Assembly (NCBI GenBank): GCA_021831565.1
Contig: JAKBMM010000027.1
Span: forward strand, 1 to 38,804
Direction: 5' to 3'
DNA: 38,804 nt
From: Planctomycetota bacterium
GTDB lineage: Bacteria > Planctomycetota > Phycisphaerae > WQYP01
Positions 7,478 through 27,393 of this stretch are shown here, piece after piece (the stretch's first letter is position 1; each line of letters begins with the position of its first letter). Both the position numbers and the translations under genes were made by a program. The notes beneath the pieces were generated by a model. The model worked only from the letters and a program-made list of their open reading frames with translations. It did not search any database and had not been told where the DNA came from.

Positions 7478-7599
7478 TTCCACACGGTGGATTGCCTGTA
7501 ACGGCGTCGAACGCCCATAGTGTCGCAATTGCCGGGGGGAAAGGCAAATGGATTTTCCTATATTGGATTTTCCTATATCCGCCGCGCGCACGGCTGAAT

Positions 7600-10274: not shown

Positions 10275-10333
10275 AAAGCATGACGGTCAATATGCGGCGC
10301 CACGCAACAGGGGCGCCGACTCGCCGTGGCGCG

Positions 10334-10380
10334 CCTGGTGCTCGGTCACACCGCAACTGCAGGTGTGACCGAGCACCAGG
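10334..10380. repeat. Perfect 19-bp stem-loop, GTGCTC/GTCACA palindrome family
   Basis: CCTGGTGCTCGGTCACACC (10334-10352) and its exact reverse complement (10362-10380) enclose the 9-base loop GCAACTGCA. Related copies are a complete hairpin at 30570-30615 and a solo half, including the loop, at 36255-36280. The dispersed, palindromic and intergenic character suggests a REP-like element rather than a terminator, since no U-tract follows. Confidence 0.8.
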
Positions 10381-10462
10381 GAAAGTTCCCGATTTTGATG
10401 ATCATGCGGACGCGACGCCGGCACGCCGGAATTGCCCACGGCCCCGGCCCGCAGGTGAAAAT

Positions 10463-12169: not shown

Positions 12170-12179
12170 TGAGGATTTC

Positions 12180-13325
12180 ATGTCTCAGATTCTGATTGAT
12201 CGGCTGCTGGAAACCACCATTCGAAAGGGCGCCTCCGACTTGCACCTGCACGTGGGACGCCCGCCGACGCTCCGCTTAAACGGTCACCTCCGCGAACTGC
12301 AGACAAAGGTGCTCGAACCCGACGACACCATGGCCCTGATGAAAGCCGTCACCCCCGATCGCGGCCAGCAGGAGCTCCAGGAGCAGGGCACCACCGACTT
12401 CGGCATGGCCTTCGCCACGGCGGACGGATCGGCCAAGGCGCGTTTCCGCGTTTCCGTCTTTCGCCAGAAGGGCGTCATCTCCCTGGTCATGCGAAAAATT
12501 CCCTACAAGCTGCTGAGCTTTGAGGACATCGGTCTGCCGACGATATGCCGCGAGCTGTGCCGCCGGCCGCGCGGACTCTTTCTGGTCACCGGCCCGACCG
12601 GGTCCGGCAAGACCACGTCGCTGGCGACCATGGTCAACTACATCAACGAGAATTTCGACCGCCATATTGTCACAGTGGAAGATCCGGTTGAATACTACCA
12701 CGACCATAAAAAAAGCATCATCAGCCAGCGCGAAGTCGGAGCGGGCAACGACGTTCCCACTTTTGCCGAGGCGCTGCGCCGTGTTTTGCGGCAGGATCCG
12801 GATGTGATCCTGGTCGGGGAAATGCGCGACTTGGAGACCATCGAATCCGCCATCCGCGCCGCCGAAACCGGCCACCTGGTCTTCGCCACGCTGCACACCA
12901 CCGGTTGCCAGGGAACCATCAACCGCGTCATCGACGCGTTTTCCGTCGATCAGCAGGAACAGATTCGCGTACAGCTTTCCGTGACTCTGCTGGCCGTGCT
13001 CAGTCAGGCCCTCCTGCCGCGGTCGGACACCGAGGGCCTCGTGGCGGCTTATGAATTTCTGGTCGTTACGCCGGCAATCGCCAACCTGATTCGTGAAAAC
13101 AAAACGTTCCGCATTGATTCGGCCATTCAGACCGGGAGAAAGTTCGGCATGCAGCTTCTGGACGATCATCTGCTGGAACTTTTCAGGACCGGAAAAATCA
13201 CCGCGGAAGACGCCATCGACAAGGCCCGCAATGCCGCCGATCTGGCCGAGCGGATGGGCAAGCGGCTGGATCGACCGGATACCGACAAGGAGACCGGCGT
13301 GCCGGCCAATAGCAGTCGCGCGTAA
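12180..13325 (+). CDS. pilT: PilT-like retraction ATPase
   Basis: 381 residues, the normal PilT size. PilT hexamers disassemble type IV pili, producing retraction and twitching. The PAS-like N-terminal part (KGASDLHLHVGRPPTLRLNG) is followed by Walker A GPTGSGKTTSLATM, Asp box VTVEDPVEY, Walker B VILVGEMRDLETIESAIRAA and His box TGHLVFATLHTTG. The PilT-specific C-terminal signature (AIRNLIRE in model proteins) appears as TPAIANLIRENK. It lacks the N-terminal MshEN domain and the zinc motif of its PilB-like neighbours, as expected for PilT. GAGGA precedes the ATG. Its presence between two PilB-like ATPases argues that the locus makes a retractable type IV pilus-like fibre and not only a type II secretion pseudopilus. 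Confidence 0.92.
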   Translation: MSQILIDRLLETTIRKGASDLHLHVGRPPTLRLNGHLRELQTKVLEPDDTMALMKAVTPDRGQQELQEQGTTDFGMAFATADGSAKARFRVSVFRQKGVISLVMRKIPYKLLSFEDIGLPTICRELCRRPRGLFLVTGPTGSGKTTSLATMVNYINENFDRHIVTVEDPVEYYHDHKKSIISQREVGAGNDVPTFAEALRRVLRQDPDVILVGEMRDLETIESAIRAAETGHLVFATLHTTGCQGTINRVIDAFSVDQQEQIRVQLSVTLLAVLSQALLPRSDTEGLVAAYEFLVVTPAIANLIRENKTFRIDSAIQTGRKFGMQLLDDHLLELFRTGKITAEDAIDKARNAADLAERMGKRLDRPDTDKETGVPANSSRA

Positions 13326-13356
13326 AATTCGCCGCCGGCGACGTCCCGCCGGGCAC

Positions 13357-13603
13357 GGCGCCAAGCCGGGCCGCTGCGCCGGCCCGCGTAACAAGCGCCA
13401 AAGCGCGCCGCGGGTTTCGGCAGCGCGGCGCGAAGCCGGGCCGCTGCGCCGGCCCGCGTAACAAGCGCCGAAGCGCGCCGCGGGTTTCGGCAGTGCGGCG
13501 CCAAGCCGGGCCGCCGCGCCGGCCCGCGTAACAAGCGCCAAAGCTCGCCGCGGGATTCGGGAGCACGGCGCCAAGCCGGGCCGCTGCGCCGGCCCGCGTA
13601 ACA
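13357..13603. repeat. 70-bp tandem repeat, about 3.5 copies, between pilT and the second pilB
   Basis: Unit starts fall at 13357, 13427, 13497 and 13567, exactly 70 bp apart. Copies differ at only a few positions; GCCGGCCCGCGTAACA-like and CCAAGCCGGGCCGC-like blocks recur in each. The repeat is about 75 percent G+C and contains nested palindromes such as GCCGGGCCGC/GCGCCGGCCC. The period is not a multiple of three, and no gene is credible here. It fills nearly the whole 295-bp gap, ending 17 bp before the ATG of the second ATPase, so it would be part of the operon mRNA. Confidence 0.9.
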
Positions 13604-13620
13604 GTAAACTGGGAGTTTTT

Positions 13621-15453
13621 ATGGCGGAACACTCACCTGCCTCTAAACTGGCTTCCGCGGTCAAACCCGCCGGCTCCGGCGCCGCGCCGCCGAGCGGGCC
13701 GCTGCGCATGCCGCCGATCGATCAGCTCAAGGACCGCCCGCTGGGAAGGGTCCTGATCAAGATGGGCCGGCTCACGCGCGAGCAGGTTCATCAGGCGCTG
13801 GCGGTCCAGACCCAGCAGAAGGCCAGGAAGGTCAACACGCCGATCGGCCAGGTCCTGGTGGAACTGGGCATGATCTCCCAGAAGGACATGAATTTCGCCC
13901 TGGCCGCCCAGAGAGGCTTTGAGGTTATCGAACTGGAAGGGCGCGAGATTCCCCCGGAGGTGATCAAGCAGATACCGGCGCAGATGGCCACGGTTTACCG
14001 GGTGGTGCCGATCGCTTTCGAGGAAAAAACCAACACCATCACCATCGCGCTGGATTCCCCCGACAATTTTCGCGTGGTCGATGATCTCCAGACTCTCATG
14101 GGGTTAAAGGTGATCACCTGCATCGCCGAGCCTGCGGCGGTGGCCAAGCTTCTGGCCAAGCATTACGAAACACACCAGGAATCCCTTGCCGATCTTATGT
14201 CGGAAATTGGAACCGATGCCTCGCTCCAGGCTCTTGAGAACCGCGGCGAATCCATCGACCTGCAGACCCTCAAAGATCTGGCCGAATCGAACCCCGTCAA
14301 GCGGCTTCTGAACACCGTGCTCATGCAGGCCATCAAGGAACGCTCCTCGGACATCCATTTCGAGCCTTTCGAAGACGACTACAAAATGCGCTACCGCATC
14401 GACGGCGTGCTCTATGAAATGGTGCCGCCTCCGAAATATATCGCCATGGCCATCGCCAGCCGCATCAAGGTCATGGCCAACCTCGACATCGCCGAACGGC
14501 GACTTCCTCAGGACGGGCGCATTCCGCTGGTCGTCGGCGGCCACCCCGTGGACCTGCGCGTGGCGGTGCTGCCGACCCTTTTCGGCGAAAGCATTGTGTT
14601 GCGCGTGCTCGACCGTTCCAATGTGTCGCTGGACCTCGATAAACTGGGTATGCGGGAAGATGATTTGAAGCTTTTCCGGCAGCTCATCGCCAAGCCCAAC
14701 GGCATCGTGCTGGTTACCGGTCCGACCGGTTCGGGAAAAACCACCACCCTTTATGCGGCCCTGAATGGACTCAACAGCCTGGAAGACAAGCTCATCACCA
14801 CCGAAGACCCCGTCGAGTACGATATCGACGGCGTGGTGCAGGTGCAGATACGTCCGGAAATCGACCTGACCTTCGCCACGTGTCTTCGTTCGATCCTGCG
14901 CCAGGATCCGGACATTATTCTTGTCGGTGAAATACGCGATAAGGAAACCGCGGAAATCGCCACCCAGGCCTCGCTCACTGGACACCTGGTTTTCAGTACC
15001 CTGCATACCAACGACGCCCCTTCCTCGGTCGCCCGTCTGCTGGACCTTGGCGTGGAACCGTTCCTGATCACCGCCACGCTGGAAGGTATTCTCGCCCAGC
15101 GGCTCTGCCGCCGCATTTGCGTGCAGTGCAAGGAGGCGTATAAACCCACCGAGGAGCAGCTTCTGGAGCTGGAACTGCGACCGGAAGATGTCAAAGACAA
15201 AACGTTTTACCGCGGGCGGGGCTGCGGCGAATGCAACAATACGGGTTACCGGGGCCGGCTGGCGATCTGTGAAATCATGATCTTCGACGACGACATACGT
15301 GAAATGATTATGAATCGCGATTCGACCAATCTGTTGCGGGACGCCGCCCGGCGGCGGGGGATGCGGTCGTTGCGCGAATCGGGCCTGCTGGGCATTTATG
15401 AGGGCCTGACCACGATAGAAGAGGTCGTCAAGCAAACCATTGTCGAAGATTAA
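13621..15453 (+). CDS. PilB/GspE-family assembly ATPase (second copy)
   Basis: 610 residues, with the same build as the copy at 10463 but clearly diverged. A Pro/Ala-rich tail of about 30 residues leads into the MshEN domain (LGRVLIKMGRLTREQVHQAL, IGQVLVELGMISQKDMNFAL). The motor domain follows: SSDIHFEPFEDDYKMRYRID, Walker A GPTGSGKTTTLYAAL, ITTEDPVEYDIDGV, Walker B ILVGEIRDKETAEIA, and TGHLVFSTLHTNDAPSS. The zinc site is CVQC...CGECNNTGYRGRLAICE. It begins after GGGAG at the end of the 70-bp repeat array and is followed 140 bp later by the PilC/GspF gene. Gene order suggests this is the main extension ATPase, but which copy serves which fibre cannot be told. Confidence 0.93.
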   Translation: MAEHSPASKLASAVKPAGSGAAPPSGPLRMPPIDQLKDRPLGRVLIKMGRLTREQVHQALAVQTQQKARKVNTPIGQVLVELGMISQKDMNFALAAQRGFEVIELEGREIPPEVIKQIPAQMATVYRVVPIAFEEKTNTITIALDSPDNFRVVDDLQTLMGLKVITCIAEPAAVAKLLAKHYETHQESLADLMSEIGTDASLQALENRGESIDLQTLKDLAESNPVKRLLNTVLMQAIKERSSDIHFEPFEDDYKMRYRIDGVLYEMVPPPKYIAMAIASRIKVMANLDIAERRLPQDGRIPLVVGGHPVDLRVAVLPTLFGESIVLRVLDRSNVSLDLDKLGMREDDLKLFRQLIAKPNGIVLVTGPTGSGKTTTLYAALNGLNSLEDKLITTEDPVEYDIDGVVQVQIRPEIDLTFATCLRSILRQDPDIILVGEIRDKETAEIATQASLTGHLVFSTLHTNDAPSSVARLLDLGVEPFLITATLEGILAQRLCRRICVQCKEAYKPTEEQLLELELRPEDVKDKTFYRGRGCGECNNTGYRGRLAICEIMIFDDDIREMIMNRDSTNLLRDAARRRGMRSLRESGLLGIYEGLTTIEEVVKQTIVED

Positions 15454-15593
15454 AAGAGCAACCGGCCGGTGGCTCCGCGCGCCGCCGCGCCCGGTTCGGC
15501 GCCCCGCCCCCCTTTCCGCACGGGCCGATCGTCCGTATATATCCATCAGGAAAAACATGATGTTTGGTCCCTGTACCAGTTGGAGGTGCATCC

Positions 15594-16901
15594 ATGCCCA
15601 CGTTCCAGTATGAAGCGCTCAATGCCGCCGGCCAGTCGATCAAAGCCGAACTCGAGGCCAATAGCTCGGACGAGGCGATATCCCGAATTCGCTCCCAGGG
15701 CTATTTCCCGATGAAAATAAAGGAGAAGCCCGGCAAGCGGCAAAAAGGACCTGCGGCTTCGACCCCGGCGCAGGCGGCCGCACCGGCGGCGGGGGGGACC
15801 ACGACCAAAAAGAAAAAGGGACTCAATGAAGTTTCCTTCACCATTGGTCACGTGTCCCTCAAGGTTATCACCCAGTTCACCCGCCAGCTTTCGACGCTCC
15901 AGGACGCCGGCCTGCCGATCCTCCGTTCCCTGAAAATTCTCCATCAGCAGCAAAAGCCCGGCCTGATGCGCGACACCCTGGCCGGCGTCTGCGCCGATGT
16001 GGAGGGCGGCTCGACGCTTTCCGAAGCCATGGGCCGGCACCCGCGGGTGTTTGACAAACTTTACGTGAACATGGTCCAGGCGGGTGAAACCGGCGGCGTG
16101 CTGGATGTGATTCTCCAGCGCCTCGCCGAATTCATGGAGAAGGCCCAGAAACTCCGCCGCCGCATCCGCGGCGCCATGATCTACCCCTCGGTGGTCATTT
16201 CGGTCGCCGTGCTGATGGTCACGGGCATCATGTATTTCGTGATTCCGAAGTTCCGAAAACTATTCGCCTCGTTCAAAACCGGCCTGCCCAAGATCACGCT
16301 CTACCTCATCAGCTTTTCCCACTGGATCGCCCATGAGTACGGCTGGGCGTACATCTTGTTTTCGCCGTTCGTGATATGGCTGTTTCTCAAAATTATCAGC
16401 AAGACCAAGCCGGGGCGTTACGCGATCGACGTGATCAAGCTCAAAATTCCGGTGATGGGCCTGATCGTTTCCAAAGGAACCATCGCCCGTTTCACCCGCA
16501 CGCTCGGAACGCTGCTCTCCGCCGGCGTGCCGATCCTGGAGGCCATCAACATCACCCGCGAGACCTGCGGCCACATGATTTATGAACGGGCCTTGCAGAA
16601 AGTCCACGACGCCATCCGCGAGGGCGAAAGCTTCGCCGGGCCGCTGCGCGGCTCACGCGTCTGCGACGCCATTGTGGTCAATATGATCGACGTGGGCGAG
16701 GAAACCGGAGACCTGGACAAAATGCTTATGAAAATTGCGGATAACTATGACGAAGAGGTCGACGTGCTCGTCACCTCAATGATGAGCATTATCGAACCGG
16801 TCATGATCGTCGTGCTTGGCGTAATCGTCGGTTTTATCGTGCTCGCGGTGTTTTTACCTTATATCAAGCTGCTCCAGAGCGTGGGCAACCAAACCGGTTG
16901 A
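15594..16901 (+). CDS. PilC/GspF-family inner-membrane platform protein
   Basis: 435 residues. GspF/PilC is the inner-membrane platform that links the assembly ATPase to the growing pseudopilus. The N terminus has the ssDUF start PTFQYEALNAAGQSIKAELE, then an Ala/Pro/Lys linker (about residues 47-75). Two T2SSF domains follow: FTRQLSTLQDAGLPILRSL with VQAGETGGVLDVILQRLAEF, and FTRTLGTLLSAGVPILEAI with IDVGEETGDLDKMLMKIADNY. Three membrane spans are visible, near YPSVVISVAVLMVTGIMYFV, WAYILFSPFVIWLFLKI, and the C-terminal VMIVVLGVIVGFIVLAVFLP. The ATG at 15594 follows GGAGG. It lies between the ATPases and the pseudopilins. Confidence 0.95.
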   Translation: MPTFQYEALNAAGQSIKAELEANSSDEAISRIRSQGYFPMKIKEKPGKRQKGPAASTPAQAAAPAAGGTTTKKKKGLNEVSFTIGHVSLKVITQFTRQLSTLQDAGLPILRSLKILHQQQKPGLMRDTLAGVCADVEGGSTLSEAMGRHPRVFDKLYVNMVQAGETGGVLDVILQRLAEFMEKAQKLRRRIRGAMIYPSVVISVAVLMVTGIMYFVIPKFRKLFASFKTGLPKITLYLISFSHWIAHEYGWAYILFSPFVIWLFLKIISKTKPGRYAIDVIKLKIPVMGLIVSKGTIARFTRTLGTLLSAGVPILEAINITRETCGHMIYERALQKVHDAIREGESFAGPLRGSRVCDAIVVNMIDVGEETGDLDKMLMKIADNYDEEVDVLVTSMMSIIEPVMIVVLGVIVGFIVLAVFLPYIKLLQSVGNQTG

Positions 16902-17025: not shown

Positions 17026-18441
17026 ATGAGTAACGTGAATCCGCAGAAAATGAACCCGTCTCCGCGCCTCCGCGTGCGATCGGCGGCCCCGCGCGGGCCA
17101 GGGCCCGCCGCTAAACCGTCTCCCGTCGGTTCCCAAAATGTTTCTTGGCTTCCTTGGCGTCTTGGCGGTTCCAAACTGTCTGCGTGTCTCCGCGTGCCCC
17201 CCGTGGCCACGCGCGGGACAGGTCCTGCGGCTAACCCGCGTCCTGGCGATTGTTTTTTCACCATCAATTCGCCCCAGGCTTCCGCCATGGGGCTATTCCG
17301 TGCGCTTGGCGGTTCCGTGGTTGAAAATATCTCCGCGCCTCCGCGCCTCCGCGTGAGCTCTTCGTACACGCGCGGGACAGGTCCCGCGGCTAACCGTGGT
17401 TTCGTGTCTTCGTGTCTTCGTGGTAAATCCTCGCCCGGTTTTACCCTCATCGAACTGCTGACGGTCATTTTCATCATCGCCATTTTGATCGCCATCCTTC
17501 TGCCGGCGCTGATCGGCGCGGTTCACCAGGCTTACTCCACCTCTACCCAGGCGGAATTGAATTCGGTGCGGGCGGCCTGCCTCTCCTATGATGCGGCGTT
17601 TAACGCCTACCCCGGACCGTTTGCCGAAGCGGATATCTCGCAACAAAAAGTGCTTGCCAACGGTCTTCCGGTTACCGGCACGCAAAATATGCTGCTGGGT
17701 CTGATGGGAACGTTTTATCTTAGTAGTGCTTCACCACCGTATCCAACCACGGGTGGCGCTCCCATAACAATAACTGATACTGGACCGGTGGGGACTACCA
17801 CTGTTGTCGTGCCATCAATAAAACCATTTGGTTCCGGCCCCATCGACTATTCCAACGGCAATCTTCAAAAAAATTCCTACCTTTCTCCGGCCGTTGAGGA
17901 TTTACTGACCAACCCGCCCCCTTCACCAACGACTATTTCCAACGGTCTCCCCACGCTTTACGACGCTTTTCCCGATGGCTTGCCCATTTTGTATTACCGG
18001 AAGGTTCCCGGTATGCCGGGAACCACCGGAGTGCCGGTATGGTTGAACAGCACCACAAGTGGAGGCGCTCCTGGGACTGGCGCCGCGTTTTATCTGAACT
18101 CCAATCTGGCCTACACCAGCCCCGGAGTGGCGCCGACCTATCTCCTTGCCGCTAAGAATGGTACAAGTTATTCCGAAGGATATTCCTCCTATAATAGCTC
18201 CACGAACAATCCCTATGGAAGTCCCGTAAACGCTTTGGCCGCTACAGTGGTGAACCAGGGTCTTGTCGGTACCAATCCTCCCGGCGGTTTCAATACCGTG
18301 GGATTGCCCGTCCAGGGCGGCTTTGTACTCATCGGCGCCGGGCCGGATCACATTTATGGCCAGAACTTAAATCCCAATGTCGCCGGCAGCGGCGGCGTCG
18401 CGCCGCCGTCGGATGACATTGTGGTCTTTGGTGGACAATGA
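17026..18441 (+). CDS. GspG-like pseudopilin with a long repeat-derived leader
   Basis: 471 residues from the ATG at 17026. The prepilin cleavage site is KSSPG/FTLIELLTVIF (Phe codon at 17440), with Glu at mature position 5 and a single hydrophobic helix. Typical GspG sequence follows (AYSTSTQAELNSVRAACLSY). The mature C terminus GGFVLIGAGPDHIYGQNL...SDDIVVFGGQ resembles the GspG calcium-loop end. From the ATG the leader is 138 residues and is made of the CTCCGCG/CTTGGCG repeat family. An in-frame GTG at 17404 would instead give a normal 12-residue leader (VSSCLRGKSSPG), so the true start is open. GGAAGGTGCGTT precedes the ATG. The mature region is Ser/Gly/Pro-rich and longer than classical GspG. 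Confidence 0.85.
   Translation: MSNVNPQKMNPSPRLRVRSAAPRGPGPAAKPSPVGSQNVSWLPWRLGGSKLSACLRVPPVATRGTGPAANPRPGDCFFTINSPQASAMGLFRALGGSVVENISAPPRLRVSSSYTRGTGPAANRGFVSSCLRGKSSPGFTLIELLTVIFIIAILIAILLPALIGAVHQAYSTSTQAELNSVRAACLSYDAAFNAYPGPFAEADISQQKVLANGLPVTGTQNMLLGLMGTFYLSSASPPYPTTGGAPITITDTGPVGTTTVVVPSIKPFGSGPIDYSNGNLQKNSYLSPAVEDLLTNPPPSPTTISNGLPTLYDAFPDGLPILYYRKVPGMPGTTGVPVWLNSTTSGGAPGTGAAFYLNSNLAYTSPGVAPTYLLAAKNGTSYSEGYSSYNSSTNNPYGSPVNALAATVVNQGLVGTNPPGGFNTVGLPVQGGFVLIGAGPDHIYGQNLNPNVAGSGGVAPPSDDIVVFGGQ
17040..17444 (+). repeat. In-frame repeat array in pseudopilin leader 1
   Basis: Blocks of the dispersed family are recognisable: TCTCCGCGCCTCCGCGTGCG, CCTTGGCGTCTTGGCGGTTC, TGTCTCCGCGTGCCCCCCGT, and at the 3' end the long block that starts GGTTCCGTGGTTGAAAATAT (17311) and ends CGTGTCTTCGTGGTAAATCC. 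This last block (about 130 bp) recurs nearly unchanged in leaders 2 and 5. Confidence 0.8.
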
Positions 18442-18488
18442 ATAAATAGCCCCCTGGCTCAAGCCTGTGGCGAATAAACCGGACGGCA

Positions 18489-19130
18489 ATGATGAAAACG
18501 ATTTGCTTAACACACAAAGAACCACGAATGAACGGTGACAAAGTCAACCGCCCCGGTACCATTGTAAACCGCCAAGACGCCAAGAGCGCCAAGAAAGTGG
18601 TTAAAAAAAGTCCTTGGTGTTCTTGGCGTCTTGGCGGTTCAAAACCGTATCCCGGCGGTTCCCAAAATAGCCCTCCGCGTCCTGGGCGGTTCAAAGTGGT
18701 TAAAAAAAATTCTTGGCGCTCTTGGCGCTCTTGGCGTCTTGGCGGTTCAAAAGCGTGTCTTGGCGGTTCCAAACCGCGTCCCGATGGTTCCCAAAATAGC
18801 CCTCCGCGTCCTCTGTGTCCTCCGCGGTTCAAAGTAGTTAAAAAAAGTCCTTGGCGTTCTTGGCGTCTTGGCGGTTCAAAAGCGTGTCTTGGCGGTTCCA
18901 AACCGCGTCCCGATGGTTCCCAAAATAGCCCTCCGCGTCCTCTGTGTCCTCCGCGGTTCAAAGTAGTTAAAAAAAATCCTTGGCGTTCTTGGCGTCTTGG
19001 CGGTTCCGTGGTTGAAAATATCTCCGCGCCTCCGCGCCTCCGCGTGAGCTCTCCGTACACGCGCGGGACAGGTCCCGCGGCTAACCGTGGTTTCGTGTCT
19101 TCGTGTCTTCGTGGTAAATCCTCGCCCGGT
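18489..19130 (+). repeat. In-frame repeat array in pseudopilin leader 2, with 129-bp tandem unit and hairpin
   Basis: The array opens with a 73-bp hairpin: AACCGCCAAGACGCCAAGAG begins the left arm at 18567, and the right arm ends with TCTTGGCGTCTTGGCGGTT at 18639. It continues with alternating CTTGGCG.., GGCGGTTCC.. and CCTCCGCGTCC.. blocks. A 129-bp unit is duplicated head to tail (GCGGTTCAAAAGCG at 18742 and 18871). Translation of the core is KVVKKSPWRSWRLGGSK. There is no in-frame stop over 640 bp. Confidence 0.85.
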
Positions 19131-19946
19131 TTTACCCTGATCGAGCTGATGGTGGTGATTTCCATTATCGCCATTTTGATCGCCATCCTGGTGCCCGTGG
19201 TGGTTATCGCCCAGCAGCGGGCGTATATCAACACCACCCAGGCCGACATGAGCACCATTGCCTTGGCCCTGGGCGAATATCACACTGATTTCAATATGTA
19301 TCCCAATTCAACACAAGCCTCGGTAAAAATCAGCCCGCCCGGCATGTACAGCGGCGCGATTCCCGCGGGCGCCGCCTATGAATATCTCGCCGAAGCGTTG
19401 CTCGGCTATCTGCCGGGCCTATATGACGGTGCTCCCTCCTCCGCCGTTGGCGCTTCCTACGGCTATACAACAGGCACGCTCGCGGAAACCAAAGGCTTCA
19501 GCATGTTGCCTTACAAACGCGTCTATGGCCCTTACATGGACATCGGCGCTGCCAATCTTGTCATGGTGGCGAATCCTACGGTTGCCACGGTGCGGGATTA
19601 CTACTTCGGCGACGCCTTTCCGCCGCCCAGTGGAAATATCTTCTCGCCGATTCTCTATTATTCAGCCGAGGCAACGCCCACCACCAGCAATATTTTCGGT
19701 GTCGTACCCGGCCAGGGAATTTTTGACGCACCCGACGATTCGGCGGCGGGGGCCACCCCGCCCACCAGCGCGCCCGCCGCCGGCAGCCCCCAGGCGCAGT
19801 TTCTTGCATTGATCGGCAATAAGGAAATGAACAATACGATTTACCCTGATGACCAGATTGCCGGCCAGCATGGCTACCTGCTGGTCAGCGCCGGGCCGGA
19901 CGGCGTGTATTTCACCGGAGATGACGTTGTTTATGGCGGACCATAG
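18489..19946 (+). CDS. Second GspG-like pseudopilin with the longest repeat-derived leader
   Basis: 485 residues from the ATG at 18489 (another ATG follows directly). The cleavage site is KSSPG/FTLIELMVVISI (Phe codon 19131), then one membrane helix and GspG-like sequence (AYINTTQADMSTIALALGEYH). The C terminus is HGYLLVSAGPDGVYFTGDDV, close to the GspG end SAGPDG..GTDDI that binds calcium in characterised members. The leader is 214 residues from the ATG, made of repeats, including a 129-bp direct tandem duplication. A GTG at 19095 would give the 12-residue leader VSSCLRGKSSPG, identical to that of the first pseudopilin. It starts 47 bp after that gene. Mature part about 271 residues. Confidence 0.85.
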   Translation: MMKTICLTHKEPRMNGDKVNRPGTIVNRQDAKSAKKVVKKSPWCSWRLGGSKPYPGGSQNSPPRPGRFKVVKKNSWRSWRSWRLGGSKACLGGSKPRPDGSQNSPPRPLCPPRFKVVKKSPWRSWRLGGSKACLGGSKPRPDGSQNSPPRPLCPPRFKVVKKNPWRSWRLGGSVVENISAPPRLRVSSPYTRGTGPAANRGFVSSCLRGKSSPGFTLIELMVVISIIAILIAILVPVVVIAQQRAYINTTQADMSTIALALGEYHTDFNMYPNSTQASVKISPPGMYSGAIPAGAAYEYLAEALLGYLPGLYDGAPSSAVGASYGYTTGTLAETKGFSMLPYKRVYGPYMDIGAANLVMVANPTVATVRDYYFGDAFPPPSGNIFSPILYYSAEATPTTSNIFGVVPGQGIFDAPDDSAAGATPPTSAPAAGSPQAQFLALIGNKEMNNTIYPDDQIAGQHGYLLVSAGPDGVYFTGDDVVYGGP

Positions 19947-20009
19947 CCCCATAGCCCCACGGCGGGAGCCTGGGGCGAAAGCCTGGGGCGAACAAACCGG
20001 ACAGCAACG

Positions 20010-21089
20010 ATGAAAACGATTTCTATCAAGCGCAAAGAACCACGAATGAACGGTGACAAAGTCAACCGCCCCGGTACCATTGTAAACCGCCAAGACGCCA
20101 AGAACGCCAAGAAAGTGGTAAAAAAAAGTTCTTGGCGTCTTGGCGGTTCAAAACCGTGTCCCGGTGGTTCCCAAAATAGTCCTCCGCGTCCTCTGTGTCC
20201 TCGGCGGTTCAAACTGGTAAAAAAAAGTCCTTGGCGCTCTTGGCGTCTTGGCGGTTCCAGACCGCGTCCCGGCGGTTCCCAAAAGAGTCCTCCGCGGTTC
20301 AAACTGGTAAAAACTGTTCCAACTTCTCGCGCCGCACCCGGTTTCACCCTGGTGGAATTGCTCGCCGTGCTGGCCATTATGGCCATCGCGGCCGCGGTCA
20401 GCCTGCCGGCGTTCGTGGGGTTGTTCCGCGGCAACAACCAGGTCCAGGCGATCAATCAGGTTACCGCCGATCTGACCTTGGCCCGCAATCTGGCCCTGCA
20501 ACTGCATACGGATGTCGCCCTGGTGTTTTACGAGGAATCGGCAAACGGATTTACACTATCGGGCGTTACTCCCACTCCGCCGGTCCATTCCGGCGAAACG
20601 GCGATGGCCTTTGCCGTGGCCCTGCCGGGCCAGCCGGAGAATTCCGCCGCCGCGCCGATCTGGTTCGAGCCTTATTCCGGCGTGCCGGTCCAATATTTAC
20701 CCAAGGGAACTTACGTGGCCACGCTGGTGGGCTATATCGCCACGGCGCCGCCAAATTATGCCAATGGTTTTTATCTGCCGCCAACGCCGGCTGCATCTGC
20801 CGGTAACGCCCCGCGGGCCATTGTTTTCAATCCCAATGGGCACGTGACCATCATCAATGACCTGGGCGCCGTGAAGAATCCATCCCTGCCCACCGCGGAC
20901 TATGGCGATTGGAATTTTACCGTTACCGGCGCACCCGGCGCCGGACCGAGTTCTCCGGGCGTGGTGGTTTATGAACCGAACGCGATGCCGCAATCCGCTC
21001 TCGTTAATGCCACCGCCCTTGGTACTTATCTGGCCGCCAATGCCGACGTGCTGACGGTCAACAGTTACACCGGGAGCATTGTGCCATGA
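20010..21089 (+). CDS. GspH-like minor pseudopilin with repeat-derived leader
   Basis: 359 residues from the ATG at 20010. The cleavage site is SRAAPG/FTLVELLAVLAIM (Phe codon 20343), followed by the GspH/FimT-type start (INQVTADLTLARNLALQ). The mature part is about 248 residues and ends near VNSYTGSIVP. The leader is 111 residues and repeat-derived. Unlike the two GspG-like genes it has no GTG, ATG or TTG codon close to the cleavage site; the nearest in-frame candidate is a CTG about 10 codons before the cleavage site, and the nearest GTG is about 75 codons away. Its stop overlaps the next ATG by four bases (ATGA), indicating coupled translation of the GspH-, GspI- and GspJ-like genes. No strong Shine-Dalgarno is visible. 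Confidence 0.82.
   Translation: MKTISIKRKEPRMNGDKVNRPGTIVNRQDAKNAKKVVKKSSWRLGGSKPCPGGSQNSPPRPLCPRRFKLVKKSPWRSWRLGGSRPRPGGSQKSPPRFKLVKTVPTSRAAPGFTLVELLAVLAIMAIAAAVSLPAFVGLFRGNNQVQAINQVTADLTLARNLALQLHTDVALVFYEESANGFTLSGVTPTPPVHSGETAMAFAVALPGQPENSAAAPIWFEPYSGVPVQYLPKGTYVATLVGYIATAPPNYANGFYLPPTPAASAGNAPRAIVFNPNGHVTIINDLGAVKNPSLPTADYGDWNFTVTGAPGAGPSSPGVVVYEPNAMPQSALVNATALGTYLAANADVLTVNSYTGSIVP
20085..20310 (+). repeat. In-frame repeat array in pseudopilin leader 3
   Basis: A hairpin comes first: the left arm (AACCGCCAAGACGCCAAGAA..., 20085-20112) pairs with TTCTTGGCGTCTTGGCGGTT (20129-20148). Then come CCTCCGCGTCCTCTGTGTCC and two more CTTGGCGTCTTGGCGGTTC-type blocks, ending at CCTCCGCGGTTCAAACTGG. 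Confidence 0.8.
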
Positions 21090-21958
21090 CGTACTGTGCA
21101 GAAAATAATCCTCCGCGTCCTCCGCATCCTCCACGGTTCAAAGTGGTAAAAAAAAATCCTTGGCGTTCTTGGCGTCTTGGCGGTTCCAAACCGCGTCCCG
21201 GCGGTTCCCAAAATAGTCCTCCGCGTCCTCTGTGTCCTCCGCGGTTCAAAGTAGTTAAAACCTCTCGCGCAGCGACCGGTTTCAGCCTGATCGAAATGCT
21301 TTTTGCGATCGGAATCCTGGGCCTGGGACTGATTATGGTCGCGGCCACGTTTCCCGTGGCCGTCAAATGGACCGCCCAGAACGCCCAAAGCACCATCGGC
21401 CAGGTGCTCGCACAAAAAGCTCTGGCCTACATTAAAACGCAATATGGCGTCGGCTCGCTGTACGCACCTCCTGCTTCCCCCACTTGGCAGTTATTGACAG
21501 GGACAAACTGGTATGGGTTCCACCCGTCGTCTTCCGGCCCGGCCAACAGTATTTATTACTGGACCGCCTGCATCCGCCCGGACCCGGCCGGCGCCCCAAC
21601 TCCCACTCCCCCGACTTCTTCCGGAACGCTTTATGATCTATATATTTTCGTGTTTAATAAGGGCGATGTGAACAATACATACCCCGGCACTCCTCCCAGC
21701 AAAGTCCCCATCCTTTTCACGGGTAAGCTCGCCGGTAATCCATCCACCACCCCCTTTCCCCTCGGCTCGATCGGCGTGGATCTGAATACCGGCCAGGTGT
21801 TTCGGAAAATTGTGAACGCCGGCGGAACCATCACCATGTCCGGTTGGCCCGGCTCGATTATCCCTCCACCCAGTGAGCCGGTTTTGTATGCTCCGCCGGC
21901 CCTTAACCAGGCAAGCAGCCCGCTGATTTACGTGTACGTGACCACGGTGAGTTTATGA
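21086..21958 (+). CDS. GspI/PilV-like minor pseudopilin with repeat-derived leader
   Basis: 290 residues. The cleavage site is SRAATG/FSLIEMLFAIGI (Phe codon 21281), with Glu at mature position 5, then GLGLIMVAATFPVAV as in GspI/PilV proteins. The ATG at 21086 overlaps the previous stop (ATGA), which fixes the start well: translation must pass through 65 repeat-derived codons (PPRFKVVKKNPWRSWRLGG...) before the cleavage site. No start codon occurs between the array and the cleavage site. The mature part is about 225 residues with DVNNTYPGTPPSKVPILFTG in the middle and a short C terminus, VYVTTVSL. It too overlaps the next gene by ATGA, at 21955. The FSLIEML form with a variable middle suits a minor pseudopilin at the fibre tip. 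Confidence 0.83.
   Translation: MTYCAENNPPRPPHPPRFKVVKKNPWRSWRLGGSKPRPGGSQNSPPRPLCPPRFKVVKTSRAATGFSLIEMLFAIGILGLGLIMVAATFPVAVKWTAQNAQSTIGQVLAQKALAYIKTQYGVGSLYAPPASPTWQLLTGTNWYGFHPSSSGPANSIYYWTACIRPDPAGAPTPTPPTSSGTLYDLYIFVFNKGDVNNTYPGTPPSKVPILFTGKLAGNPSTTPFPLGSIGVDLNTGQVFRKIVNAGGTITMSGWPGSIIPPPSEPVLYAPPALNQASSPLIYVYVTTVSL
21105..21262 (+). repeat. In-frame repeat array in pseudopilin leader 4
   Basis: Three family blocks lie end to end: CCTCCGCGTCCTCCGCATCC-like, CTTGGCGTTCTTGGCGTCTT, and CCTCCGCGTCCTCTGTGTCC, the last followed by CCGCGGTTCAAAGTAGTT. This is the shortest array and has neither the hairpin block nor the long GTG block. Confidence 0.75.
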
Positions 21959-23691
21959 TCAAAGTGGTTAAAAAAAGTCCTTGGCGTCCTTGGCGTCTTG
22001 GCGGTTCAAAACCCCGTCTTGGCGGTTCCCGAAATAGTCCTCTGCGTCCTGGGCGTCCTGGGCGGTTAAAAGTGGTTAAAAAAAGTCCTTGGCGTCCTTG
22101 GCGTCTTGGCGGTTCCCGAAATAGTCCTCTGCGTCCTGGGCGTCCTGGGCGGTTAAAAGTGGTTAAAAAAAGTCCTTGGCGTCCTTGGCGTCTTGGCGGT
22201 TCAAAAGCGTGTCTTGGCGGTTCTGTGGTTGAAAATATCTCCGCGCCTCCGCGCCTCCGCGTGAGCTCTCCGTACACGCGCGGGACAGGTCCCGCGGCTA
22301 ACCGTGGTTTCGTGTCCTCGTGTCTTCGTGGTAAATCCGCGCCCGGTTTCACCCTCATGGAAATGCTCGTGGTGCTGGCCATCATGGTGATTATGATGGC
22401 CGCGGTGGGCGAAATATTTTCCCTGGCGGGCCATTCCGTGCGCCTTGGCCAGGCCACGCTTAAGGTGATGGCCAACGTGCGGGCCGTCCAGGCCCAACTG
22501 GCCAAAGATGTTTCTCATATCGACACCAATGGTTATCTGATTATCCGCCAAAGTAATTATGCGCCGCTGTGGCTGGCGAGCGTTCAATATGAACCCGGCG
22601 ATGAGGTGAATTACGGCGGCTTCTATTATCGTTGCAGCAAGCAAAATACCGCCAACACCAGCAACGCGCCACCCAATGGGTCCTACTGGCAAGGCCCCCT
22701 GCCGCTAACAATAAGCACGCCGTATGGACCTGACATTATCTACCCCTGGCGCGATGACCAAATCACCTTCATCGCCCACGGCAGTTTTCAAAGCCGCACC
22801 GGTAATAACGGAACCTCTTCCGCCAGTCCGCTGGTGGATTGTGTCACCTCCAATTCCGCGGCGGTGTGGTATGGGCAATTGACGGCATCGTATGGTTCAT
22901 CGGCGACAACGGGTTCGCTAACACCGGGGTTGGCTGAAGAACGACCCTATTGGAGCCAGAGCACGTCGATTCCGCAGGGCCAACCGCCCTCCGGCGAAAC
23001 CGCCGGCGACTTTTATCTCGGCCGGCATGTATTGTTGCTGGCGCCATCAACAAATGCGAATACCGTAACAGTTACTATTAATGGTAGTAATTATACCGAC
23101 GCGGCATATTCAAACATTTTTTACAACGGTAACGGTAATAGTAATATGCCGCAAACCGCGGTGGCGGGCGAAAGACCCGCCGATATCACTTCCTCGCGCC
23201 TGGATCTGGCCACCATAACGCCCGCGGCCATCGAAGCGGCGATCGTGACCATGGCCCCACCGCTGTCGGCCACAATTCCCGACGATTATTGTTACCGCTT
23301 CGCTTCGTTGGTGACGCCGGCGGCGTCCAATCAGATGACCGATCAGCTTATCAACGGCTATTTCCGCATGACGCCGATCCTTCTCCCGGGCGTACCGAGT
23401 TTTTCGGTGGACGTGGGGTATGTAAATACGCTTGGTGTATTGCAATGGTACGGACCGGATTACCCCTCCAACAATCTCGCCACCAATCCCAACCCGACTC
23501 TTTATCCCAGTTGGGATCCAACGCTTTTTTCGATATCTGCTGACCAGGGTGATATCCAGTCACTGGTTTTCGATGCCGCTAACCGCCCGTATTGGCCGAC
23601 CGCATTACGGATTACCTACACCGTGACGGACCCGCACAACCGCATGGAGGGCGGCCAGACGATCACGCAGATTATCCAGTTGCCGCAATGA
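21955..23691 (+). CDS. GspJ-like minor pseudopilin with repeat-derived leader
   Basis: 578 residues. The cleavage site is KSAPG/FTLMEMLVVLAIM (Phe codon 22348), followed by GspJ/PilW-like sequence (ATLKVMANVRAVQAQLAKDV). The ATG at 21955 overlaps the preceding stop (ATGA), and the repeat starts directly after it (MIKVVKKSPWRPWRLGG), so the leader is 131 residues unless the GTG at 22312 is used (12 residues). The mature part is large for GspJ, about 447 residues. It includes a short aromatic module YEPGDEVNYGGFYYRCSK...NGSYW (about residues 210-245 of the full protein) that resembles CBM5/12-type carbohydrate-binding modules; that is inference. It is followed 57 bp later by the GspK-like gene. 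Confidence 0.82.
   Translation: MIKVVKKSPWRPWRLGGSKPRLGGSRNSPLRPGRPGRLKVVKKSPWRPWRLGGSRNSPLRPGRPGRLKVVKKSPWRPWRLGGSKACLGGSVVENISAPPRLRVSSPYTRGTGPAANRGFVSSCLRGKSAPGFTLMEMLVVLAIMVIMMAAVGEIFSLAGHSVRLGQATLKVMANVRAVQAQLAKDVSHIDTNGYLIIRQSNYAPLWLASVQYEPGDEVNYGGFYYRCSKQNTANTSNAPPNGSYWQGPLPLTISTPYGPDIIYPWRDDQITFIAHGSFQSRTGNNGTSSASPLVDCVTSNSAAVWYGQLTASYGSSATTGSLTPGLAEERPYWSQSTSIPQGQPPSGETAGDFYLGRHVLLLAPSTNANTVTVTINGSNYTDAAYSNIFYNGNGNSNMPQTAVAGERPADITSSRLDLATITPAAIEAAIVTMAPPLSATIPDDYCYRFASLVTPAASNQMTDQLINGYFRMTPILLPGVPSFSVDVGYVNTLGVLQWYGPDYPSNNLATNPNPTLYPSWDPTLFSISADQGDIQSLVFDAANRPYWPTALRITYTVTDPHNRMEGGQTITQIIQLPQ
21959..22346 (+). repeat. In-frame repeat array in pseudopilin leader 5, with 87-bp tandem unit
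   Basis: Three consecutive units start with AAAGTGGTTAAAAAAAGTCC. The first encodes 36 residues, the second 29 residues (87 bp), and the third runs into the long block with GTGGTTGAAAATATCTCCGC that is shared with leaders 1 and 2. Cores are CCTTGGCGTCTTGGCGGTTC and CCTCTGCGTCCTGGGCGTCC. All spacings keep the reading frame. Confidence 0.85.
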
Positions 23692-23748
23692 GGTTGAATG
23701 AAACGATAGCCCCGTGGCGCAAGCCGGGGGCGAATAAACAGGACGGCA

Positions 23749-26700
23749 ATGATGAAAACGATTTCTATCAAGCGCAAAGAACCACGGATGAACGGTGGCA
23801 AAGTCAACCGCTCCGGTACGATTGCAAACCGCCAAGACGCCAAGGACGCCAAGAAAGTGGTTAAAAAAAGTCCTTGGTACTCTTGGCGTCTTGGCGGTTC
23901 CAAACTGTCTCTTGGCGGTTCCCAAAATAGTCCTCTGTGTCCTCCGCGTCCTGGGCGGTTCAAAGTAGTTAAAAAAAATCCTTGGCGTCCTTGGCGTCTT
24001 GGCGGTTCCAAACCCGGTTCCCAATCGCCGCGCGGCATGGTTCTTATCCTGGTGGTGGCCATCCTCGTGCTCCTGGCGATCATGGGAACCATCTTTATTG
24101 TGGTGGCCAACACCGATAAACAATCCGTCTACGCCTCCAATGATGCCATCAGTATGAACTTTGCCCGCCAGGGGGTGCTCAACATTATTCGCGGCGACAT
24201 GCTCAACCAGACGCTGGACCAGAACGGCAACGTGCTAGCGATAGATCCGACACTTCTGACGGATCGGATTTCCCGTTTCTGGGATTACCCGGAAATGGGC
24301 AGTGTGTCGACTACGTCGCTGGCGAATACCCTCCCCTTTTACGAGGTGAACGCTCCAGCGAGCAACCTCCCGCCTTCCCCGGCGATGCAGCTCGCCCCCA
24401 GCCAACCCTGGCTGGTCTCCAATTTGCCGTGGGAACCGGATACAAACTACGTGGCGGGCGATGAGGTGATTTATGCCGATGCGGCCGCCAGTCTGCCGAC
24501 GCTTTATTTGCTCTCGTGTAACACAACGCATCTTTCAGGCGCGCCGGGATCGAATCCCACCGCCAGCGGACACTGGACTACGGTTTCCAATATCTCCTCC
24601 ACCAAACCACTGCTGAGCATGTTGACCCCTTATCTCTACGACCCCACCACGGGCCTATACGATATTGGCCTTAGTTGGAATTCAAACGGTACGCCAGTCA
24701 CTATACCCGGTGGCAGCTACAAAGTGAATGTTCCCAACGCCAGTGTGGTCGAACCGCGCTGGTTTTATAATTCGGCGAATCCATCGATCCCTTCGCAAAA
24801 CGGCACTCTCGATGCCCTCTGGAATCTTCTGCCCTACAGCGGCCCCGGCGGCACGCGCTACCGCTTCGCCCTGCGAATTGTGGATTTGTCCAGCCGGCTG
24901 AATCTCAACAGCGGTTACCCCGGCGGCTCTGCCGATCCTTATCCCGGTGTCTCCCCCGACCCTTACGGCGAATATCTTTCCTCCTGCCCGATCTGGCTGA
25001 GCTATGTCAGTGGTAGTCCCGCCGACAATTCTAATGTCCAATATCTGCAAACATCCACCAGTCCTCCTGGCCGGGAAGGAACATCCGCCTCCCCCCCATA
25101 CACCCTCCAAACCTGGCAAACCCAGGAGCTTTTTAATTATGAATTACCGGTGCCCCCCCCAACGCAGTTTTTCGGCCTGACCAGCGAACTGGAACTGCTC
25201 ACTTACGGTTCCTATGGCAGTTCTTTCGGCAGTACGTTTACCGGCGGGCGGCTGCCTGACGGCGGTTTGCCATACAATTGCCGGCCGGCGCTGATTCTGC
25301 CCTATACGCTCGGCGCCACCACCAACGGTATGCTCGACGCCACCAACACCGGTTATCGCAGCTTCTTCACCACCTATTCCTGGGATCGCAATTATTTTCC
25401 GGAAGCGCGGGGAACGGCGCCCTATTCCCTGGTAACGAATGCAAACTCTTATTCCTACCCTGATGTTCTCAACCTGAACCAACCCACAACTCCCGCCGAA
25501 ATCGGCACGCTTGCCGAGAATATTGCTTACGCCATGCTGGATGCCGGCTACACATCAATGCAAGCCGATTCCTTCGCCGTTAACTATGTCACGTACCGCT
25601 TCTATACAATCCCCGACAGGACGACGTATTCGCCGGCTTACGTGGACAGCCGCGGCGAGCTTTATATCCCTTGGATGAGCAGTTACACTCCTGTCGCATT
25701 GATGCCGCCGGTTTATAATGGTCAGCCATACGCACTGATGGGTTTTGCGGCCCAGCCGTTTCTAAACGAACTTGCGGTGGCGGCAACCTACCCCAAGGGG
25801 GGGCCGGTTTCTTTCAACAATTGTGCGGTGGAACTGTTTAATCCGTTTAATGTATCTCTAAACTTGAGCGGCTGGCAGATCAAAATATATAATGAATCTA
25901 CAGGAACTTACAGTTCTCCACCAGTTACTCTCTCTACTTCTATTATCCCGCCCGACGGCTATCTGGTGATCGCCGAGAATGGCTCGACCGGTTTTACTCC
26001 ACCGCCACAGGGAACCGTCATTCCCAATCCCAATCTTGTCTTCCCATCCAGTGCCCCATTCCAAGTGGTTCTTTTCCGCCCGGGTGGGCCGACTGGTTAC
26101 TTTCCCGTTGACGCTTTTGATACCCTTTACACACCACCCGCACCAGCTCCTCCCGAAAGCGTCTTCGATAACATCACTGTTAACGGTACCTTTTCAATCC
26201 AGCGTGCCAATGGCGCCGTTGGTACTTCGGCAATGTGGGGATGCGCCCAGGCGGTTCCCCCGCTTAGCCACATGGTCGGCGGCGATTCGCTCGGTGCGAT
26301 AAATTCTTCATTTCCTACCCCCACCGGACAAGCCATTCCGCTCTATGACCGCTTCGCGGATGGTTATGCGCCTCTTTTCGTATCGGGAACTCCCCCGACG
26401 ATAGACAGCAATCTAGATTTGATCAACCTGGCTGACTTAAACTGCATCCCCCGGCAGGCCAACTCGGAAACACAGACTACCGGCGTGCCCCTGCCGCTTT
26501 CCTTACAGCTTGAGCAAGATGTTCTCCTTCCACATACTTTTCCGCCAGGTGCGAGCACCTTCAATGGCGAGCAATATCAGTACCACACCTATTTCGATTT
26601 CGCCTACGATCCACGTGCGGCGTTTACCTGCGCCACCACCACCACCGGTACCGTAAAGCCGTCATTTCTCTCCATGATTTCGCTCAATGACCGGGCCGGT

Positions 26701-27393
26701 ACTTCTACTCCCGGCGGGCTGCCCAATCCCGTCGACGCCGTGCGTATTCCGGGAAAAATTAACGTGAATACCGCCGGCGCCAACGTACTGACCACGGCCT
26801 TTTCCAATGTGCCTAGCACAACCGGCCTAACTCCCCAGCAGATGGCCGCGGATGTGATCGCCTTTCGCAATCGCGACCCCGTCGGCACTATCAATATACC
26901 CGACGGATCCGGTGGTGTGACGGCTGAACCACACCCCGACTATTCAAATTCAACCAATTATCCTGGTTACGGTTTGCGCTCTCTGGGCGATATGCTGGTG
27001 GCGTTCCTGCCGTCGGAGATGATTTCCGGTATTCCGCCGACCACTATGCAGCAGTGCGACGCCGCTTGGGCCGACGTCGCCAATTTCTGCACCGTCCGCA
27101 GCGACACTTTCGCGGTTTACGGCCTGATTCAGGCGCTCAAACTCAATGGAAACTATACTGGAACTTACCTGCCCACCGACTGGTACAACGCCAATCAGGG
27201 CAATTTCATCGGAACCAGTCCCACCTACGAGAATACGATTGCAACCGATAATCCCAACTCGGAATTCATTCTCCTCGGCCAGCGGCGCTTCATCGCCATT
27301 ATTGACCGGTCGTTTTCCAATATGGACACTGGTCCCGGCGGCACTACAATTATTCAGCCCAAAGTGGTCGCCCTGAAAAATCTCCCGCAATAA
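23749..27393 (+). CDS. Very large GspK-like minor pseudopilin with lamin-tail-like domain
   Basis: 1214 residues, against about 300-350 for classical GspK. After a 96-residue repeat-derived leader the membrane segment reads PRG/MVLILVVAILVLLAIMGT, a GspK/PilX-type start without the usual Glu5. The GspK signature PGKINVNTAGANVL lies near residue 1000. Between them are added parts: a WEPDTNYVAGDEVIY...GHW module near residues 227-280, similar to the one in the GspJ-like protein, and a block near residues 690-800 (VELFNPFNVSLNLSGWQIKI, IIPPDGYLVIAENG) that fits a lamin-tail/LTD-type beta fold. The rest is Ser/Pro/Gly/Tyr-rich. GspK caps the tip of the pseudopilus, so these domains may be surface-exposed. 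It ends 11 bp from the converging mannosidase gene. Confidence 0.8.
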   Translation: MMKTISIKRKEPRMNGGKVNRSGTIANRQDAKDAKKVVKKSPWYSWRLGGSKLSLGGSQNSPLCPPRPGRFKVVKKNPWRPWRLGGSKPGSQSPRGMVLILVVAILVLLAIMGTIFIVVANTDKQSVYASNDAISMNFARQGVLNIIRGDMLNQTLDQNGNVLAIDPTLLTDRISRFWDYPEMGSVSTTSLANTLPFYEVNAPASNLPPSPAMQLAPSQPWLVSNLPWEPDTNYVAGDEVIYADAAASLPTLYLLSCNTTHLSGAPGSNPTASGHWTTVSNISSTKPLLSMLTPYLYDPTTGLYDIGLSWNSNGTPVTIPGGSYKVNVPNASVVEPRWFYNSANPSIPSQNGTLDALWNLLPYSGPGGTRYRFALRIVDLSSRLNLNSGYPGGSADPYPGVSPDPYGEYLSSCPIWLSYVSGSPADNSNVQYLQTSTSPPGREGTSASPPYTLQTWQTQELFNYELPVPPPTQFFGLTSELELLTYGSYGSSFGSTFTGGRLPDGGLPYNCRPALILPYTLGATTNGMLDATNTGYRSFFTTYSWDRNYFPEARGTAPYSLVTNANSYSYPDVLNLNQPTTPAEIGTLAENIAYAMLDAGYTSMQADSFAVNYVTYRFYTIPDRTTYSPAYVDSRGELYIPWMSSYTPVALMPPVYNGQPYALMGFAAQPFLNELAVAATYPKGGPVSFNNCAVELFNPFNVSLNLSGWQIKIYNESTGTYSSPPVTLSTSIIPPDGYLVIAENGSTGFTPPPQGTVIPNPNLVFPSSAPFQVVLFRPGGPTGYFPVDAFDTLYTPPAPAPPESVFDNITVNGTFSIQRANGAVGTSAMWGCAQAVPPLSHMVGGDSLGAINSSFPTPTGQAIPLYDRFADGYAPLFVSGTPPTIDSNLDLINLADLNCIPRQANSETQTTGVPLPLSLQLEQDVLLPHTFPPGASTFNGEQYQYHTYFDFAYDPRAAFTCATTTTGTVKPSFLSMISLNDRAGTSTPGGLPNPVDAVRIPGKINVNTAGANVLTTAFSNVPSTTGLTPQQMAADVIAFRNRDPVGTINIPDGSGGVTAEPHPDYSNSTNYPGYGLRSLGDMLVAFLPSEMISGIPPTTMQQCDAAWADVANFCTVRSDTFAVYGLIQALKLNGNYTGTYLPTDWYNANQGNFIGTSPTYENTIATDNPNSEFILLGQRRFIAIIDRSFSNMDTGPGGTTIIQPKVVALKNLPQ
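23827..24010 (+). repeat. In-frame repeat array in the GspK-like leader, with hairpin
   Basis: Left arm AACCGCCAAGACGCCAAGGA... (23827-23854) pairs with the right arm ending TCTTGGCGTCTTGGCGGTT (23871-23899). CTCTTGGCGGTTCCC, CCTCTGTGTCCTCCGCGTCC and a further CTTGGCGTCTTGGCGGTTCC follow. The preceding 78 bp, including the ATG, matches the 5' ends of leaders 2 and 3. Confidence 0.8.

Follow-up and report, generated by a model that had tools for sequence, protein, structure and literature searches.

Long, repeat-filled leaders in six consecutive prepilin genes of a planctomycete, probably lengthened by in-frame insertion of dispersed DNA

Results

Six prepilin genes lie downstream of a GspF gene

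We analysed a 38,804-nucleotide stretch of DNA from an uncultured Planctomycetota bacterium of the class Phycisphaerae (hereafter the window), which is the whole of contig C85 of the source genome (G000; 2.81 Mb in 86 contigs). The data throughout are sequences of metagenome-assembled genomes (MAGs), in which the copy numbers of short-read arrays may be imperfect. The window carries six consecutive prepilin genes (17026-27393) positioned 3' of genes for GspE, PilT-like, GspE and GspF proteins (10280-16901), and our subject is the leader of each prepilin, which ends at the glycine at position -1 of the cleavage site. The named relatives of the window's GspF are Planctomycetota, mainly Phycisphaerae MAGs. 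The locus contains the following features.

10280-12169, + strand: GspE-like ATPase
12180-13325, + strand: PilT-like ATPase
13621-15453, + strand: GspE-like ATPase
15594..16901, + strand: GspF/PilC-like inner-membrane platform protein, the anchor used for comparing relatives
17026..17439, + strand: leader of prepilin gene 1, 138 codons including the -1 Gly; contains CTCCGCGCC, TTCGTGTCT, CGCGGGACAGGTCC and one exact CTTGGCGTCTTGGCGGTTC
17440..18441, + strand: mature pseudopilin 1, with a GspG-like N-terminus (FTLIELLTV...); N_methyl 26.7 bits; GspG 3.3e-9, under the curated cut-off
18489..19130, + strand: leader of prepilin gene 2, 214 codons, 98% recurring repeat DNA
19131..19946, + strand: mature pseudopilin 2, GspG-like; profile matches under curated cut-offs
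20010..20342, + strand: leader of prepilin gene 3, 111 codons; no ATG/GTG/TTG closer than 75 codons to the cleavage residue
20343..21089, + strand: mature pseudopilin 3, GspH-like; N_methyl; GspH 0.0016, sub-threshold
21086..21280, + strand: leader of prepilin gene 4, 65 codons; start overlaps the gene 3 stop (ATGA)
21281..21958, + strand: mature pseudopilin 4, GspI/PilV-like; PilV 5.1e-5, under the cut-off
21955..22347, + strand: leader of prepilin gene 5, 131 codons; start overlaps the gene 4 stop (ATGA); holds an 87-nt tandem repeat
22348..23691, + strand: mature pseudopilin 5, in the GspJ position, with an N_methyl motif
23749..24036, + strand: leader of gene 6, 96 codons; closest upstream ATG/GTG/TTG 59 codons from the cleavage residue
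24037..27393, + strand: mature part of gene 6, a large pseudopilin in the GspK position (RG|MVLILVVAIL; an orthologue in the related genome G012 has RG|MILLLV)

T2SSE and MshEN were matched among the three ATPases. The N_methyl family (PF07963) was matched in genes 1-5 with 20.3-31.8 bits, gene 4 being slightly under the cut-off. In profile searches gene 6 matched neither a GspK family nor the N_methyl family, and it has the RG|MVLILVVAIL sequence given above. An earlier reading, made from the DNA letters alone (the sequence-only reading), had ended the locus at 24036; the sixth gene in fact extends to 27393. The traits of prepilins (-1 Gly, E5 and a hydrophobic alpha1-N) are present, an assembly ATPase and a platform protein are encoded in the operon, and the one Peptidase_A24 gene of the genome, on contig C34, is a candidate for the prepilin peptidase.

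Leaders are long and composed of recurring DNA

Excluding the -1 Gly, the leaders of genes 1-6 have 137, 213, 110, 64, 130 and 95 codons; counted with it they have 138, 214, 111, 65, 131 and 96, the lengths that the sequence-only reading had given. Known prepilin leaders have 6-26 amino acids, or about 15-30 in type IVb prepilins (PMC4471445). None of the six genes has a leader of the usual length (about 6-30 residues), a trait that is customary rather than defining, and all six exceed every leader described, by a factor of two to eight.

Much of this length consists of DNA shared among the leaders. Specifically, 12-mers recurring among leaders cover 51, 98, 89, 73, 97 and 84% of the leaders of genes 1-6. 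Over all 2,247 leader bases their coverage is 0.84, compared with 0.016 (maximum 0.058) for a Markov null, and they cover less than 2% of the mature parts. The exact CTTGGCGTCTTGGCGGTTC core is likewise concentrated here, as 13 of its 17 copies in the genome lie in the locus (binomial P about 3e-31). The sequence-only reading held that a single repeat family fills the leaders. The filling stands, at 84% recurring 12-mers, but the single family does not, since at least five repeat types are found (CTTGGCGTC, CCTCCGCGT, CTCCGCGCC, TTCGTGTCT and CGCGGGACAGGTCCCGCGG) and the leaders are mosaics. The leader of gene 1 is made mostly of CTCCGCGCC, TTCGTGTCT and CGCGGGACAGGTCCCGCGG, and several of the types have a 9-bp periodicity. 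A near-identical 3' module at the cleavage site is common to gene 1 (17309-17436), gene 2 (19000..19127, + strand) and gene 5 (22217-22344). Leader segments of different genes inside one genome are 80-95% identical, which implies exchange between leaders; these comparisons support the view that sequence would pass from leader to leader.

The leader of gene 2 begins with a 5' cassette (18489..18640, + strand) made up of the start codon and a palindromic repeat with a 27-bp stem (-58 kcal/mol, z -10.5), and related blocks lie at 20010-20149 (gene 3), at 23749-23900 (gene 6) and on contigs C8 and C23. Genes 2, 3 and 6 open with an inverted copy that yields a palindrome, and their hairpins have z scores of -10.6, -8.8 and -6.2, respectively. 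The block of start codon and palindrome was observed in the source genome at C8:4622-4800 (L073) and C23:175-356 (L074), besides window positions 18489, 20010 and 23749. As it occurs in three genes of the operon, in an unlinked prepilin and at a contig end, this block is possibly a portable start-plus-leader cassette.

One explanation for such features would be that the repeats act as DNA or RNA, either through mRNA hairpins that tune expression of the operon or through shared leader DNA that promotes recombination or duplication among the pilin genes. The 5' hairpins of genes 2, 3 and 6 would fit this explanation, as would the exchange implied by the within-genome identity of leader segments. 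Lower dS in leaders than in mature parts points the same way: in genus g3 (G003/JA4.bin8), the gene 1 and 2 leaders (L040 and L130; 40 and 88 codons) have dS of 0.04 and 0.15 versus 0.8-0.9 in the mature parts, hinting at constraint at the DNA level or at recent exchange. However, genes 4 and 5 are without an inverted copy, the stem of gene 6 has internal mismatches, and the tested stretches without an inverted copy in genes 2 and 4 fold at chance relative to shuffles (z +0.9 to -1.3). Since the mature parts lack recurring DNA, shuffling of the pilin bodies is not evident either. We regard a DNA or RNA role as very unlikely to account for the leaders.

The pilin frame stays open through the repeats

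None of the six leaders contains a stop codon in the pilin frame, and the forward frames +1/+2 of genes 1-6 contain 4/6, 8/11, 6/2, 3/3, 4/8 and 4/3 stops, respectively. Each motif occupies a single codon phase (TTGGCGGTT in 19 of 19 copies, the GTxGTTAAAA type in 14 of 14, CCTCxGxGTCC in 9 of 9 and GGTTCCCAAAA in 10 of 10), and the spacings between motif copies in leaders are all multiples of 3, in agreement with the earlier statement that the repeats are read in one frame without stops. Among long leaders in five genomes, all 15 are free of stops in frame 0, while stops occur in 29 of the 30 other forward frames. In contrast, an array of related units outside any leader in a sister genome (G001) has a period of 88 nt and stops in all frames. 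We also compared 40 Phycisphaerae prepilins in which 200 nt or more separate the Gly from the previous stop. In these the pilin frame is open for 101 codons on average versus 30 in the other frames (Wilcoxon 4e-8), and the excess stays when the window is left out (Wilcoxon 2e-7). Three very long leaders from the automatic list (L174, L158 and L186) were excluded because their open frames overlap upstream genes, and subsequent counts covered just the stretch that follows the previous stop.

The repeats could instead be untranslated intergenic DNA, with translation beginning at a GTG or rare codon by the cleavage site and producing ordinary leaders. Genes 1, 2 and 5 have a GTG at 11, 28 and 40 codons from the Gly, inside the shared 3' module, which are possible starts; gene 6 has an ATG at +1, just past the -1 Gly, and the same repeats are mostly intergenic elsewhere. 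However, the candidate GTG codons are without a recognisable Shine-Dalgarno sequence, and in genes 3, 4 and 6 the cleavage residue is preceded by 75, 45 and 59 codons, respectively, that include no ATG, GTG or TTG; a prepilin gene on contig C8 likewise has none within 65 codons of its cleavage site. A downstream start in all six genes, which would have removed the basis of the sequence-only reading, is thus not possible. The strict codon phase, the multiple-of-3 spacing and the frame that stays open across Phycisphaerae also argue against untranslated repeats, as do the retained starts of genes 4 and 5 at the stop overlap. Specifically, the gene 4 start overlaps the previous stop by -4, with leaders of 12, 25 and 46 codons in relatives and 64 here, and for gene 5 the overlap is -1 or -4, the leaders having 20-29 codons in relatives and 130 here. 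Since this overlap matches that of relatives with 12-46-codon leaders, the extra DNA would lie downstream of a start that was retained and before the cleavage site. We consider untranslated repeats an unlikely explanation, though one with some weight, and these sequence patterns make translation of the leaders almost certain.

Non-leader copies lie mostly between genes

Non-leader copies of the repeats were counted in the source genome and in G012. These are mostly intergenic, as 7 of 42 lie in open reading frames (ORFs) of 200+ amino acids although such ORFs make up 70% of the same DNA. The coding copies are located in prepilin leaders, and a seventh prepilin, on contig C8 of the source genome, also has a repeat-built leader; a genome-wide search thus turned out as the sequence-only reading had predicted. 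AAATCCAAAATC occurs beside a prepilin motif in just 3 of 298 genomes of the class; widespread occurrence in leaders is thus not seen for any single repeat type. A full-text literature search with the DNA strings of the repeat cores returned nothing relevant.

A reading of the core as a DNA uptake sequence was ruled out by copy number (17 exact cores genome-wide, 13 of them in the operon). In G001, palindromic units of 48 bp and 88 bp that are related to the leader repeats form tandem arrays at C76:5990-6309 (L212) and C100:1055-1377 (L214); the first is at a contig end, and neither adjoins a detected prepilin motif. Genes of the Y1_Tnp type (RAYT superfamily) occur in the source genome, and an ORF near the contig end of the window (94-1299) resembles, as judged by eye, an IS4-type DDE transposase.

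Related lineages carry short leaders or other repeats

Within the same family (f1), short leaders predominate at pilin loci 3' of GspF (G004, G005, G008, G014 and others), and repeat-free orthologues have leaders of 12-46 codons at corresponding start sites. In the sister species G001, gene 1 has the same start (MSNxKPQxMN) and a leader of different repeats whose frame is open to the contig end, the contig breaking within this leader. Two further genomes (G012 and JA3.bin18) have leaders of 60-238 codons. All six leaders of G012 are filled with other repeats (KSVQSVKSVD, SSLRVFASSCL and SRLPSPDSCLLSPVS), which are common to its leaders at up to 95% identity and occur at dozens of other sites in its genome. 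The gene 3 leaders of G007 and G015, with 175 and 216 codons, consist of yet other sequences, and part of the G015 leader recurs at a second place further along the same contig. Where tested, the repeat fillings of G012/JA3 and G007/G015 are dispersed in their own genomes, and the leaders of sister genera are alike in neither sequence nor length. Since the repeats differ between lineages, the fillings appear to be separate, and since in two other lineages of the same Phycisphaerae family the leaders of this operon hold repeats unrelated to those of the window, the leader is suggested as a tolerant landing site. On a GspF tree the parsimony count for the long-repeat-leader label is two changes.

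Two repeat-leader prepilins of G001 (C4, about 7346-7670, L031; C85, 4221-4625, L032) have bodies that look deleted, as the GFTLVE/SFTLVE motif leads directly into the C-terminal YNDGSV stretch. The G012 bin contains two pilin loci; the short-leader one, G012a, groups with the genus of G005 and is probably a binning error. Together with a contig end of this bin that is very similar to C23 of the source genome, it points to contamination in binning (L037 and L088).

Leaders evolve mostly near-neutrally

We then compared the ratios of nonsynonymous to synonymous rates (dN/dS), which are rough values because the leader alignments are gappy. For gene 3 of G007/G015 the ratio is 0.87 in the leader and 0.13 in the mature part, with differences by codon position of 66/53/65 and 19/13/75, respectively; for G012/JA3 it is 0.48-1.7 in leaders and 0.12-0.24 in mature parts. 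In the G007/G015 leader the differences are thus spread evenly over the codon positions. Taken together, the values indicate that little constraint acts on the identity of the amino acids, in contrast to the frame, and it appears that most long leaders evolve near-neutrally at the amino-acid level while staying open. The sequence-only proposal of the leader as a permissive site is supported by these rates and by the related loci, where these leaders are absent as conserved domains and either repeat-free orthologues or unrelated repeats take their place.

Alternatively, the leader peptide might itself be functional: being basic and cytoplasmic, such an extension could govern membrane insertion, the rate of processing or contact with chaperones. 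The leaders of the operon have a net charge of +12 to +25 per 100 residues, and the 88-codon leader of genus g3 has a dN/dS of 0.31, which is not neutral behaviour; both observations would suit a functional peptide. However, the three forward frames are comparably basic, so the charge is not special to the pilin frame, and a reading in which basic charge is selected was rejected on this ground. The dissimilar leaders of sister genera, the mostly near-neutral dN/dS and the repeat-free relatives that work with 12-30 codons speak against it as well, and we find a functional peptide the least likely of the explanations considered here. As to hydropathy, the pilin frame of the operon is hydrophilic and the +1 frame reads hydrophobic stretches.

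Proposed origin and maintenance of the leaders

We infer that the six genes quite likely encode ordinary type IV/type II pseudopilins with leaders that grew as dispersed, palindromic repeats of 9-bp periodicity were inserted in frame and amplified locally, the start codon on one side being largely ancestral and the cleavage site lying on the other. By the positive-inside rule, class III signal peptides keep their leader in the cytoplasm, and prepilin peptidase cuts it off at the Gly (PMC10191384, PMC4471445). The long leaders would likewise be translated, kept in the cytoplasm, cut at the Gly and discarded, and since a leader is discarded after cleavage, almost any hydrophilic, stop-free, net-positive sequence would be tolerated. 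Selection would purge insertions that shift the frame, add stops or read hydrophobic, recombination between leaders may carry segments from gene to gene, and 9-bp units would let arrays expand or contract in frame. The leader would then serve as a coding refuge for repeats that are otherwise intergenic, and its filling is probably of no benefit to the pilus.

Several points weigh against this explanation, among them the possible GTG and ATG starts, the gappy alignments and the constrained g3 leader described above. The shared repeat phase partly comes from copying of segments among leaders, and because of this copying the phase counts are not independent. A single origin of the tendency to long leaders is compatible with the GspF tree and may apply. 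Moreover, cleavage of a leader of 64-213 residues is an assumption.

A broader generalization, which we put forward tentatively and think somewhat less likely to hold than to fail, is that selfish palindromic repeats find a general refuge in prepilin leaders, which may also disperse them as a cassette of start codon plus leader. The leaders would form a cost-free niche that unrelated families colonise repeatedly and that pilin genes exchange with one another, and this might drive the evolution of the operon.

If insertion and amplification did lengthen the leaders, the cleaved cytoplasmic prepilin leader would be a new niche for repetitive DNA inside genes, and targeting and prepilin peptidase would accept leaders nearly ten times the length described so far. 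Where planctomycete pilins are annotated with long, odd N-termini, these may then be real rather than wrong start calls. MAG contigs, in turn, tend to break at repeat-filled leaders.

Comparison with known systems

A literature search yielded no account of long or repeat-filled prepilin leaders, or of cases where the same leaders had been filled by several unrelated repeats. The leaders described here resemble the class III signal peptides of type IV prepilins in having a hydrophilic leader, the -1 Gly, E5 and a hydrophobic alpha1-N, but they have 65-214 codons (up to 238 in a relative) and are repeat-derived. In-frame coding repeats are already known in several forms. ERIC/RU elements can form N-terminal sequence, including one predicted signal peptide (Delihas 2007, PMC2759123), but these are single predicted loci of uncertain expression, without a pattern over an operon or several genera as seen here. 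The palindromic amphipathic coding repeats (PARCELs) of Mollicutes (PMC2996958) are similar in that palindromic DNA repeats in tandem are translated within membrane or surface proteins, whereas they form structured domains of the mature product.

The closest precedent appears to be the Rickettsia palindromic elements (RPEs) and their Wolbachia homologues, which are short palindromic repeats that lie in frame in protein-coding genes and are described as translated, tolerated segments (PMC10969869, citing Ogata 2000 and 2002; PMC2996958). The repeats in the leaders similarly seem to be read in frame inside otherwise intact genes. However, RPEs occur in many unrelated housekeeping genes and are part of the mature protein, a distribution that differs from the one found here, where 7 of 42 non-leader copies lie in ORFs. 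Instead, the coding copies are concentrated in one cleaved segment of one protein class, form arrays and differ in repeat between genera. While in-frame coding repeats are thus known from RPEs, PARCELs and RU/ERIC elements, the prepilin leader appears to be new as their site.

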